A program made the position numbers and the translations under genes. Positions 18,076 to 24,582 of a stretch of 41,453 nt of DNA are shown here, one piece after another. Source of the stretch: Nitrospirae bacterium RBG_16_64_22 (GTDB lineage Bacteria; Nitrospirota; RBG-16-64-22); the NCBI GenBank assembly GCA_001803795.1, contig MHEK01000060.1, forward strand, positions 5,171-46,623. Direction: 5' to 3'. The notes beneath the pieces were generated by a model. That model was not told the DNA's origin. It did not search any database and saw only the letters and a list, made by a program, of their open reading frames with translations. The number at the start of each line of letters is the position of its first letter. Within the stretch, counting starts at the first letter, position 1.

Positions 18076-18279
18076 TCAAACCCCTCCCCCCATGAACGAG
18101 ACGACCTCGACGCGGTCGCCTTCAGAGAGGATCGTCTGTCCGTGCTCGGCGCGGGGAACAACCTTCTCGTTCAGCTCGACGGCGACGCGCCCTTGGACGA
18201 CGCCCATCTCGTCAATAAGATCGGCGACGGTTGTCCCCTCGCGAAAGACCCGTGACTCGCCGTTCACTTGCACGGTCAC
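18076..18279 (-). CDS. thiS: ThiS sulfur carrier with a one-residue C-terminal cap (GGGV)
   Basis: A 67-residue ubiquitin-like beta-grasp protein that donates sulfur to ThiG as a C-terminal thiocarboxylate. GTG 18279 is set by a GTGA overlap with the thiH stop and by GGAG upstream. The C-terminus reads FMGGGV then TGA, so the Gly-Gly that must be free for adenylation carries one extra Val. By analogy with HcyS and QbsE a peptidase would have to remove it. No ThiF and no peptidase are in this operon; candidates lie at 31522 and 35367. Confidence 0.93.
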
Positions 18280-19517
18280 CGGGCCGCTCCGTCCATCGCC
18301 CACTGCCGTTCCCGGAGCCGGGCCAGGCACTCACCCCGCGCTTGCGGGGCGCACTGGCACTCGCAGGCCGCATTTCCGGCCTCTTCCTCGTCGCAACGAC
18401 GGCAGAGATTCGGGATCCACCCCTCCCCCGTCATGTCTTCGACAACTTCCCGCAGAGACCGATGGTCCGCAAGCTCGAATTGCGCCACGTCCGCCGGCGG
18501 ATGGGGCCGGGCGTACCCTCCGGGCGACGTGGAGACGCCGGCCGAGAAGTGCGACGCGCCCGCGCGCGCGAGACGCTCCCGCATGGCCGGCAGTTCCCGC
18601 GTGGATACGGAGATCGGGCTCCACGGAAGCGCAAGGCGGTAGACGGCCGTGATCTTGAGAAGGTCGTCGTCGGAGACGGGACTGGGAGCCCGCGTCAGCG
18701 CGGCCCCCTCCGCCGGTCTCAGGCGGGGCACGGAGACCGAGACGGCGATCCCCCCGCCCCATCGCTCCCTCAGGTGCCCGGCGTGGGAAAGAAGCGAAAG
18801 AACATCGAACCGGTAGTCGTGCAAGCCCAGCAGGGTCCCTATGCCGAGATGTCGAAACCCGGCTTCCGCCGCCCGGTCCATCGTTCCCAGCCTGAAGGCG
18901 TAGTCGGCCTTCGGCCCTCCGATGTGAACCCGGACGTACGTCTCCGGATGATACGTCTCCTGGAACGACTGGTAGCGGGACGCGCCCGTATCGAACAGCC
19001 GCCTGAAGTCCTCGACGGCGAGCGGGGCCACGTTAACGGCCGCCTCGACGAAACCGCGCCGTCTCGCGGCCTCAATCGTAAGACTGACATCCTCGATGCC
19101 GGCGGCGTGACGGTCCTCCCCGGCTACGATGAGAAGCCGCGTGTGGCCGGTCCGCGCGAGCGCCTCAAGTTCGGACTCCACCTCTTCGCCGCCAAGCCAC
19201 TTGCGGTCGGCGCCCGCGCCGCGCCGGAAACCGCAGTAGAGGCAGTCGTTGGCACAGCGATTGGTAAGGTAGAGGGGAACGAAGAGAAGGCGGTGCCGGC
19301 CGAACGTCCGCAGGGCGACATCGCCAGCCGCCCGCAGGATCCCCGCGCGCGCCTCCTCATCTTCCACGGCGAGAAGATCGGCCGCGTCCTCGACGTTCAA
19401 GCCGCCGAGGGCGGACGCTTTCGCGAGGACCTCGTCCAGTCGGCCGGCATCCGGCGCGGGCCTCCGGGCGAGGGCGGAGACCGCGGCCGCGTCGAGGTTG
19501 AATGCCTGACGGTCCAT
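18276..19517 (-). CDS. thiH: 2-iminoacetate synthase ThiH (radical SAM tyrosine lyase) with HydG-like Cys tail
   Basis: Cleaves tyrosine to dehydroglycine for the thiazole ring. The 413-residue protein has the radical SAM motif CANDCLYC, followed by [11 protein letters not shown] and [12 protein letters not shown], typical of ThiH/HydG. The operon context (thiS, thiG, thiE, TPP riboswitch) supports ThiH. The C-terminus is unusual: CRRC, then 21 residues, then Cys, with three further Cys between, close to the CX2CX22C auxiliary-cluster motif of HydG. No hydrogenase genes are nearby. ATG 19517 lies just after the riboswitch terminator. Confidence 0.9.
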
Positions 19518-19533
19518 TCTCGATATTCCCCCG

Positions 19534-19565
19534 AAAAACAAAACGCCGCACCAGATGGCGCGGCG
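19534..19565 (-). terminator. Attenuator hairpin of the thiamine operon
   Basis: On the minus strand a 9-bp stem (19557-19565 with 19544-19552, one G-U pair, loop ATCT) is followed by TTTTGTTTTT. It sits between the TPP aptamer and thiH and is the likely expression platform: TPP binding would favour this terminator. Confidence 0.8.
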
Positions 19566-19585
19566 CCTATTCACTGCTGTCGACC

Positions 19586-19679
19586 GCTTCCCTACGCCGG
19601 CATGACCCGGATCAGGTGCAAGGGGTTGTTCCGCTCTCTCGGAACTCTCAGTCCTGGCCGCGCAGGACACCCCCAGCGT
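19586..19679 (-). promoter_or_regulatory. TPP riboswitch (THI element)
   Basis: The minus strand carries the conserved THI-box blocks in order: GGGGGTGTCC, CTGAGAG, ACCCCTTGCACCTGATCCGG, then GTCATGCCGGCGTAGGGAAG. It precedes thiH-thiS-thiG-thiE and should shut off the operon when thiamine pyrophosphate is plentiful. Confidence 0.96.
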
Positions 19680-21832: not shown

Positions 21833-22942
21833 TCAAGCGGCGTGAGATTCGCCCGCCCCGGACAATTCACGCGACTTGTCAGCGCCTTGTAGGCGCGAGA
21901 GTCGGCCGGCCTGGAAGCCCGCCAAAGACTCCGCCCGATCCGCCATGAAGCATTGCGGGTCGCGCCGGCGGAAGACGTCGAGCCCCCGGCCGTGCGAGAC
22001 GGCGAGACAGCCGCCGCAGACGTTCCGCACGGGGCACCCGCGGCACTCCCCGCATCCCCGGCGGTATCGCTTCGCCTCGGCGGAGTCGTAGATTTCTGGC
22101 AGGTTCGATTCGCGGACGCTCCCGATCGGCGACGGGAACTTCCGGCATGCGTGGACTTCGCCGTCCGGAAGAAGGGCGACGAAGTTGAACGCCGCGCCGC
22201 ACCCGAAGCCCGTGCACCCCCGAAGGAGCGGCCGTCCGTAGTGGTGGCGGAAGATGTTGAAGAGGTTGTCCTTGAAGCCGAGGACGGGGTTCGACCGGGC
22301 GGCGGCTATGTACTCCTTCATGAACCGGATGTATTCGTCACGTTCCGGAAGGTCGAGAAGCGCCCCCTCCCCGACCTGGGACAAGCGGTTGAACGTAAAC
22401 CGGTCGGCCAGCCCCCGGAGACGCTCGCCCAGTGGAATGACCTGGTCCGGGTTGTCCCGCGTGAGCGTCAGCATCACGTGGGCCCGGATGCGGAACGCGC
22501 GCAGGACGCCGAGAAAACCGAGGACGCGCTTGAAGTTCCCCGCCCCCCGGATCCGGTCGTTGTGTTCCGGAAGGCCTTCCAGGCTGACCTGATAGTAGAT
22601 CGGCCGGCGGATCGAGGCGATCCCGGCGATCTGCTCCCGGCTCACCGGGTTCCCGAGAATGGAAATCGCGTGCCCCGCCAAGGCGACCACGCGATAGAGA
22701 TCCATGAACCCGGGATAGAGGAAAGGATTCCCGCCCGTCAGGCAGACCTGGCCGCTCACGCGGCGCCGGTCGCAGAAACCCGTAAAGTCATCGAGGACTC
22801 TCGATGCTTCGTCGAGGTCGAGGACCGTCCTCTTCGACCGGTCGTAGCAGTGGGCGCAATGAAGCTCGCAGGCGTTCGTCAGGTGCCATTGCAGGGTGAA
22901 CGATCCCGCCTTCCGCCCGAAGAGCCAGCGATCACGCAGCAT
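21833..22942 (-). CDS. Radical SAM/SPASM enzyme, candidate peptide-tail maturase
   Basis: A 369-residue enzyme with the AdoMet cluster motif CELHCAHC near residue 25, the QVCLTGGNPF beta2 motif, and a C-terminal SPASM-type Cys cluster (CTGFGCG, CRKF, CGECRGCPVRNVCGGC). SPASM proteins mostly modify ribosomal peptides. ATG 22942 has GGGAG 5 bp upstream and starts 2 bp after the stop of the Cys-rich-tail membrane protein, so the two are coupled. I infer that this protein's tail may be the substrate. Confidence 0.85.
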   Translation of the reverse strand: MLRDRWLFGRKAGSFTLQWHLTNACELHCAHCYDRSKRTVLDLDEASRVLDDFTGFCDRRRVSGQVCLTGGNPFLYPGFMDLYRVVALAGHAISILGNPVSREQIAGIASIRRPIYYQVSLEGLPEHNDRIRGAGNFKRVLGFLGVLRAFRIRAHVMLTLTRDNPDQVIPLGERLRGLADRFTFNRLSQVGEGALLDLPERDEYIRFMKEYIAAARSNPVLGFKDNLFNIFRHHYGRPLLRGCTGFGCGAAFNFVALLPDGEVHACRKFPSPIGSVRESNLPEIYDSAEAKRYRRGCGECRGCPVRNVCGGCLAVSHGRGLDVFRRRDPQCFMADRAESLAGFQAGRLSRLQGADKSRELSGAGESHAA

Positions 22943-22943
22943 G

Positions 22944-23822
22944 TTAACTCCCGCAACCGCCGCAACCGCCACCGCACCCGCCCCCGCCGCAGGAGGAGCA
23001 CGAGGAACAGGATGAACAGGAAGACCCGCACCCTCCGTCGCCGGAGGTCCGCTTCTTCGGCCTCAGCATCTTCGTGTGCGGGAAGAGAATGGCGGGCACG
23101 GCCCCGAGTCCGTACACGGCGGCCAGGATCGCCAGCTCGTTCGTCTCTCCTCCAGGGAAGATCGACCCCGCCCTGTCCTCGAGCCACTTGAACCGAGTCT
23201 TGAGGTGCCCCAGCACGGCGTTTCCGCGGACCGTGCGGGTCGCGTTGCCGACGACGCAGACGGCGATGGCGGATGCGACCATCAACACCGCCAGGAACTC
23301 CACGTTGGTCCGCCCCCGGGCGAGCGCGATCGCGATCTTCGTGAGGGCGACTCCGGCGAGAATGAGGACGGCGCCGGCGTTCAGCCGGAACCGCGTTCTT
23401 TTCGCCTCCTCGTCCGGAAGCAGGCCAAGACGCTCCAGTTCCACCCGGTACTTGGCGCACGCGGCCTCGGCCTCAAGGCTGTCCCCGACCGACAAGCCCT
23501 CCTTCGGGACCTTGAACCACGCGAGGACCGCCTTCTCGATCGGCCGCCGGACAAGCGTCTCGGCCGACGGATCGGCCGTCACGATCTCCTCGCCCTTCAC
23601 CTTGAGAAGCCCCCGGTCGACGAGCGACAGCGCCGCCACACGCGCGGCCTCCTGGTGCCCCCCGCGAAGATATGCGATCATGTAGGGATCGGACGAATCG
23701 ATCCGCGGCGCGTCTCCCCCCTCACGGAGACAGCGCGCGCCGAGAACGCCGGCGATGACGATTCCAGCCAGAAAGAGATAGAAGACCAGGAATTCCGGAC
23801 CGGGAAGATCGAACGGGTTCAC
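22944..23822 (-). CDS. TIGR04222-type membrane protein with Cys/Gly-rich C-terminal tail
   Basis: A 292-residue protein starting at GTG 23822 (GAGGGA upstream). It begins MNPFDLPGPEFLVFYLFLAG, the typical opening of TIGR04222 proteins, followed by DPYMIAYLRGGHQEAARVA and a small winged-helix-like segment, then membrane helices around residues 147-190 and 232-248. The last 30 residues are almost only Gly, Ser and Cys, with eight Cys in SSC, GGGC and GGC steps. The tail resembles modified-peptide precursors, and a radical SAM/SPASM gene follows by 2 bp. Function unknown. Confidence 0.82.
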   Translation of the reverse strand: MNPFDLPGPEFLVFYLFLAGIVIAGVLGARCLREGGDAPRIDSSDPYMIAYLRGGHQEAARVAALSLVDRGLLKVKGEEIVTADPSAETLVRRPIEKAVLAWFKVPKEGLSVGDSLEAEAACAKYRVELERLGLLPDEEAKRTRFRLNAGAVLILAGVALTKIAIALARGRTNVEFLAVLMVASAIAVCVVGNATRTVRGNAVLGHLKTRFKWLEDRAGSIFPGGETNELAILAAVYGLGAVPAILFPHTKMLRPKKRTSGDGGCGSSCSSCSSCSSCGGGGCGGGCGGCGS

Positions 23823-23832
23823 GGCCTGTCCC

Positions 23833-24582
23833 TCAGGGAAGGCTTTCCGCCCGCTTTCGGAGCCGTTCCGCGATCTCGATCATCTTGAGGAGGGCGGGGG
23901 CGGAGGAGCCCGCCGGGAGAACTCCCGACTCGCGCGCTTCCGAGACCCGGCCCAGGACCTCATCCCATCCGGCCCCGCCGAAGGACGAGACGACGCTTAG
24001 CAGGGCTTCCTTCGGAGAAGAGGCCGGCGCGCCTTCAAGATCGAGGAGGCTCGCGGCGGCGGAGCGAAGAGGTCCGGCCGCGTCCGCGACGGCGCGGGCG
24101 GCCTGCTCTTCCCGAAGGCTCCTGAGGGCGTACTGTTCCCTCAGCCGAAGGACCATGTTGAGGCAGACCTGTCTGAGCCGTCCGATCGCCGCCTCACGGG
24201 AGATTGAAACGCCCGCGAACGGATCGCTCCCGTGGAGAACGCGCCGGCGGCGGAGAATGTCGGAGAACTTCTCGGCGAACGCTTCGGCCGCCGCCGGGAT
24301 CTCGCTTTCCAGCAGGATCATGGGCGCGAGCCGGACGGCGGCGCGCGCGGCCCTGAACGGCTCGCGGAGCGGATCGACCTTGGCGGGATCGAACGCGGAG
24401 AGGACGAGAACGACGTTCACGTCGGAGGTCGCGCGGAGCTTCCCCTCGGCCGCGCTTCCGAAGAGGACGATGGAGCGCAGATCGTCTCCCAACGCTCGCC
24501 GCGCGGCCTCCACGAACTCCTTGAGGACTTCGTCCGCGATTTCGGCGGGAGAAGCGGCTCGAAAGAGAGAAGCGTGGCTCAT
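23833..24582 (-). CDS. Nucleotidyltransferase-fold protein
   Basis: The 249-residue product starts at ATG 24582 behind AAGGAGG. Its N-terminal domain has IVLFGSAAEGKLRATSDVNVVLVL, the GSxxxGxxxxxSDxD motif of the polymerase-beta NTP-transferase fold, but the second Asp is Asn. A helical C-terminal region follows (about 130-245). It is 10 bp upstream of the membrane protein with the Cys-rich tail and probably cotranscribed with it and the radical SAM gene. It may be an inactive or altered transferase; the target is unknown. Confidence 0.72.
   Translation of the reverse strand: MSHASLFRAASPAEIADEVLKEFVEAARRALGDDLRSIVLFGSAAEGKLRATSDVNVVLVLSAFDPAKVDPLREPFRAARAAVRLAPMILLESEIPAAAEAFAEKFSDILRRRRVLHGSDPFAGVSISREAAIGRLRQVCLNMVLRLREQYALRSLREEQAARAVADAAGPLRSAAASLLDLEGAPASSPKEALLSVVSSFGGAGWDEVLGRVSEARESGVLPAGSSAPALLKMIEIAERLRKRAESLP

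Follow-up and report, generated by a model that had tools for sequence, protein, structure and literature searches.

A three-gene cassette in Nitrospirae bacterium RBG_16_64_22 probably encodes a radical SAM enzyme that oxidises cysteines in the tail of a TIGR04222 membrane protein to 5-thiooxazoles, giving a membrane-anchored array that would bind a soft metal. The cassette was found in a 41,453-nucleotide stretch of one contig (hereafter, the window), and all coordinates refer to this stretch. Close relatives of the enzyme turn such cysteines into thiooxazoles, which makes it probable that a metal-binding array of these rings is built directly on the membrane protein. In the mechanism that we propose, the nucleotidyltransferase-like, TIGR04222 and radical SAM genes would form one modification cassette, whose enzyme may have descended from SbtM by loss of an N-terminal recognition domain. 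It would perform a four-electron oxidation of Cys in the Gly/Ser-rich C-terminal tail of the TIGR04222 protein, with 5-thiooxazoles as the predicted product and a loss of 4 H (-4.03 Da) per Cys at up to eight sites. Substrate recognition was probably taken over by the rest of the membrane protein together with the degenerate nucleotidyltransferase-like protein, and copper is the likeliest metal for the array.

The three genes are on the reverse strand. The nucleotidyltransferase-like gene (23833-24582(-)) comes first, and 10 nt separate it from the gene for the membrane protein (22944-23822(-), GTG start, 292 aa). The radical SAM gene (21833-22942(-), 369 aa) begins with the ATG at 22942, one nucleotide past the membrane protein TAA (22946-22944), in the context GGGAGT-TAA-C-ATG; the program-listed ORF start at 22972 is an in-frame GTG upstream of this ATG. 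The enzyme has a radical SAM CxxxCxxC motif (CELHCAHC, 22847-22870(-); Pfam PF04055, 1e-11) and a SPASM domain (21950-22201(-); TIGR04085, 2.8e-9; PF13186, 2.5e-7) whose Cys set is complete (C-x12-G-x4-C ... CxxCxxCx5CxxC ... C). The first-pass annotation had thus correctly described a membrane protein with an eight-Cys Gly/Ser tail tightly adjacent to a complete radical SAM/SPASM gene with full Cys clusters, but it gave the spacing as 2 bp and missed the third conserved gene beside the pair. A triosephosphate isomerase gene lies 33 nt downstream of the radical SAM gene. With intergenic gaps of 10, 1 and 33 nt, the operon has neither an SbtA-like peptide gene nor space for one, which rules out such a peptide as an alternative substrate within the operon.

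The membrane protein belongs to TIGR04222 (near_uncomplex), with an NCBIfam score of 114.5 bits (cut-off 43) and a low-complexity C-terminal region. It ends in SGDGGCGSSCSSCSSCSSCGGGGCGGGCGGCGS, and this Cys/Gly/Ser tail (22947-23045(-)), the predicted modification site, holds eight of its 11 Cys within residues 265-290, the other three being elsewhere. Three transmembrane helices were predicted (residues 8-34, 138-168 and 175-192). Residues 256-292 were disordered in the AlphaFold2 model (pLDDT 79.9), and a fold search of the model against the PDB gave no match. The charge counts (+2 to +9 after the third helix, 0 to +2 in the loop between the second and third) favour a cytosolic tail, though this may not hold for homologues that have long N-terminal extensions; the opposite, periplasmic location was assigned to the TIGR04222 tail in PMC12452194. 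The candidate precursor is thus a 292-aa membrane protein, unlike the precursors that define RiPPs, which are small and consist of a leader and a core peptide.

A search for TIGR04222 in genomes sampled from five phyla gave 45 over the cut-off. An adjacent radical SAM gene was found at 19 of the 45 loci, including all 12 from Nitrospirota, and a multinuclear iron oxidase (MNIO) gene took its place at nine, all from Acidobacteriota. Loci below the cut-off and loci found via the radical SAM search were added to obtain 26 distinct radical SAM-adjacent TIGR04222 proteins, which are not an unbiased sample because some were reached through the enzyme. Their genes are from six phyla and adjoin radical SAM enzymes of at least three lineages, one of them that of the short SbtMs. 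Cys tails (2-8 Cys) were present in 26/26 radical SAM-adjacent and 9/9 MNIO-adjacent proteins, the Cys segment being internal rather than terminal in one (L036). No MNIO was matched in the genomes of the 26 at the search sensitivity used, some of these genomes being incomplete. The co-occurrence of tail and radical SAM gene, which the first-pass annotation had suggested checking, was seen for every radical SAM-adjacent protein. Adjacency is not universal, as 17 of the 45 loci had neither enzyme. Only three TIGR04222 proteins without tail Cys were detected (L177, L221 and L223; genomes G1321 and G1323, among the 17 enzyme-less, and G025, below the cut-off). Neither enzyme was alongside any of them.

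The tail could instead be unmodified and serve in metal binding or Fe-S delivery, with the radical SAM enzyme acting on another substrate, which we consider unlikely. Most of the 17 enzyme-less loci encode Cys-tailed proteins (G1237 and G1277 are at contig ends, G788 is unclassified), so a Cys tail needs no adjacent enzyme, allowing for some cut contigs, and the evidence for modification is indirect. Against this, the operon gaps hold no peptide gene, and Cys tails are found in 35/35 enzyme-adjacent proteins, which involve at least three radical SAM lineages as well as MNIOs. Tailless proteins standing equally often beside the enzyme, the pattern proposed earlier as contrary evidence, were thus not observed (0/3 Cys-less proteins, a small number). 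Together with the SbtM-clade enzyme and the MNIOs beside similar tails, this makes the tail of a full-size membrane protein, as first suggested, the best-supported candidate substrate. In at least five enzyme-less Cys-tailed loci (L179-L182, L213), a protein resembling GRDP (LARENxW...EYKRF) is encoded upstream or is fused to the TIGR04222 protein, as judged by eye from the sequence.

The window enzyme scored 537.3 bits against TIGR04082 (SbtM; cut-off 350), the match being confined to positions 196-516 of the 516-position model. A tree built with 55 radical SAM proteins placed it inside the SbtM clade (34 rows, 100/100 support), where the short forms, including the window enzyme, make up a subclade nested among long forms. 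Its identity to relatives in this clade that are not from its own genus lineage is 52-62%. Two features by which SbtM is recognised, the N-terminal domain of ~195 residues and an adjacent SbtA peptide, are missing from the window enzyme and its operon, respectively; given the missing domain, we call it an SbtM-derived short form and not a canonical SbtM. A Cys-tailed TIGR04222 neighbour was found for 10 of the 12 distinct short SbtMs, with the phyla Nitrospirota, Omnitrophota, Verrucomicrobiota, Acidobacteriota, Desulfobacterota and Pseudomonadota represented. Scanning for Cys-rich Gly/Ser segments near the two exceptions (L103:6258-7484 and L112:9626-10984), which have no TIGR04222 neighbour, gave no convincing substrate. 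None of the 81 distinct long SbtMs had a TIGR04222 neighbour in the sequence in view (58 with at least 2 kb visible upstream). By a rough pattern search, 34 of these 81 have an SbtA-like peptide encoded upstream, 27 with an in-frame TGA (for example ...CSSGNSAUSGDKKGAGSSQSGUSG... in L075). The units of these peptides, SGU/SGC or SCGKGSCG, have a local context like that of the window tail, and the SCGKGSCGK repeat is found in the peptides of L043 and L052. Peptides with repeats of this type upstream of an SbtM-clade gene (L041, L043, L052) resemble the EGKCG repeats of MNIO substrates.

The long SbtMs are also related to the MNIO systems through their N-terminus, which aligned with the DUF2063/RRE partners of MNIO enzymes over 178 columns (hhalign 94.5%, E 7.7e-8; 0.2% for an unrelated control pair). 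Pfam matches to DUF2063 and NGO1945_C were weak, and the clear match came from the profile-profile comparison; the N-terminal profile gave nothing meaningful against PDB sequences. This relation, exemplified by L008:1447-2091, is missing from the NCBIfam name. The review PMC11002830, citing Lewis et al. 2021 (doi 10.1021/acs.biochem.1c00469), describes a characterised SbtM that converts Cys/Sec to thio(seleno)oxazole in vitro with the loss of 4 H, the thiooxazole being established by NMR. Thio(seleno)oxazole formation is also the putative activity of the window enzyme. Another gene in the window (18276-19670(-)) encodes a ThiH/HydG-like radical SAM protein that is under both cut-offs (291 bits for ThiH, 269 for HydG).

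A different product on the same tail, such as thioether (sactionine or ranthionine) crosslinks from Cys to neighbouring residues, appears quite improbable. The sole PDB sequence matches of the enzyme are the SPASM peptide modifiers SkfB (6efn) and 5wgg, which we take to be thioether-making enzymes of other systems. The second and third radical SAM lineages beside TIGR04222 are under the cut-offs of all named families, so thiooxazole chemistry should not be assumed for them. The window enzyme itself is inside the SbtM clade and over the TIGR04082 cut-off, and the thiooxazole-making MNIO class adjoins the same kind of tail, both of which argue against a thioether. Cys modification by a SPASM enzyme, as initially proposed, remains the best-supported reading, with the SbtM clade pointing to a likely 5-thiooxazole instead of the thioether or epimer named then.

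Sequence comparison indicates that the tail is under selection and not a chance feature. Its last 20 codons differ from two congeneric relatives at five and four synonymous and no nonsynonymous positions, and the 150 codons before the tail differ at 14 synonymous/8 nonsynonymous and 30/31 positions. When 11 sequences were aligned, the ten others being 27-95% identical to the window protein, the terminal GGCGGCG did not vary. A functionless low-complexity product of repeat slippage is therefore a very remote prospect, even though the repeat DNA is GC-rich and copy number varies (both congeners have seven tail Cys, one SSC unit fewer than the eight of the window protein), as no nonsynonymous drift was seen in close relatives and the GGCGGCG end is kept where the rest of the proteins are 27-46% identical.

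The third gene product was modelled with AlphaFold2 (pLDDT 89.8), and Foldseek matched it to AAD(9)/AadA nucleotidyltransferases (1.5e-6). Its GS-x-AE...SD-x-N motif does not vary across 12 homologues. Pol-beta-type nucleotidyltransferases have two catalytic Asp in D-x-D, and here Asn replaces the second (D56-x-N58), which makes catalysis by this protein doubtful. A recognition or scaffold role may be suggested, and a relation to the DUF2063 partner was rejected by profile-profile comparison. Every short-SbtM cassette has this gene alongside TIGR04222, as do L116/L117, where the enzyme is of another radical SAM lineage, and the MNIO cassettes L184/L186.

TrkA-N/ion channel genes were observed beside TIGR04222 in cassettes of three enzyme classes (L037:2313-3938, L062:8244-10001, L087:2927-4522, L168, L169, L172 and L186). 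In L036:11046-13679(-) the Cys tail continues in frame, with no stop, into a TrkA_N/Ion_trans_2 potassium channel; the two are either naturally fused or joined because the assembly has lost a stop codon. Counting this fusion, channels adjoin four short-SbtM, three lineage-2 and one MNIO cassettes. The profile search detected none at the six lineage-3 loci, the 16 enzyme-less loci listed, or in the window. The channel profile was built from four of the same loci, so this association is a lead and not a test.

Thiooxazoles have been described in small peptides that bind metals. Here a full-size membrane protein is the likely substrate across several phyla, and radical SAM enzymes occupy the position that MNIOs hold elsewhere. 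If true, RiPP-type chemistry would reach proteins that stay permanently in the membrane, part of the TIGR04222 family would gain a function open to testing, and nature would provide two unrelated routes, for comparison, to possibly the same chemical group. More speculatively, radical SAM/SPASM enzymes and MNIOs, two mechanistically unrelated classes, may have been swapped repeatedly while making the same 5-thiooxazoles on the tail of one family, forming a metal site that is never released from the membrane as a peptide and that some lineages couple to a TrkA-N potassium channel.

Among known systems, SbtM/SbtA is similar to the window cassette in the radical SAM clade, the full radical SAM and SPASM Cys sets, and target Cys/Sec residues flanked by Gly/Ser. 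The window cassette differs in having no N-terminal DUF2063/RRE-like domain, small SbtA peptide or Sec, in its likely target, a 292-aa membrane protein, and in the extra nucleotidyltransferase-like gene. MNIOs form 5-thiooxazoles (PMC12668002; for bufferins, PMC12452194), and MNIO-TIGR04222 clusters have already been published (PMC12452194, where radical SAM appears in the reference list only); the radical SAM-TIGR04222 pairing was not found in the literature searched. These MNIO (DUF692) clusters share the target family and the Cys-rich Gly/Ser tail with the window cassette, and the MNIO loci L184 and L186 carry the same nucleotidyltransferase-like gene. In contrast to them, the modifying enzyme in the window is a radical SAM protein, and no MNIO (PF05114) gene was matched in its own genome (G000, 89% complete). 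The captophorins (bufferins, oxazolin and fontiphorin), MNIO-made 5-thiooxazole metallophores (PMC12668002), have short Cys-Gly units and the same 5-thiooxazoles as predicted here, but they are small signal-peptide-bearing peptides modified by an MNIO with its DUF2063 partner, whereas the predicted target in the window is a multi-pass membrane protein.
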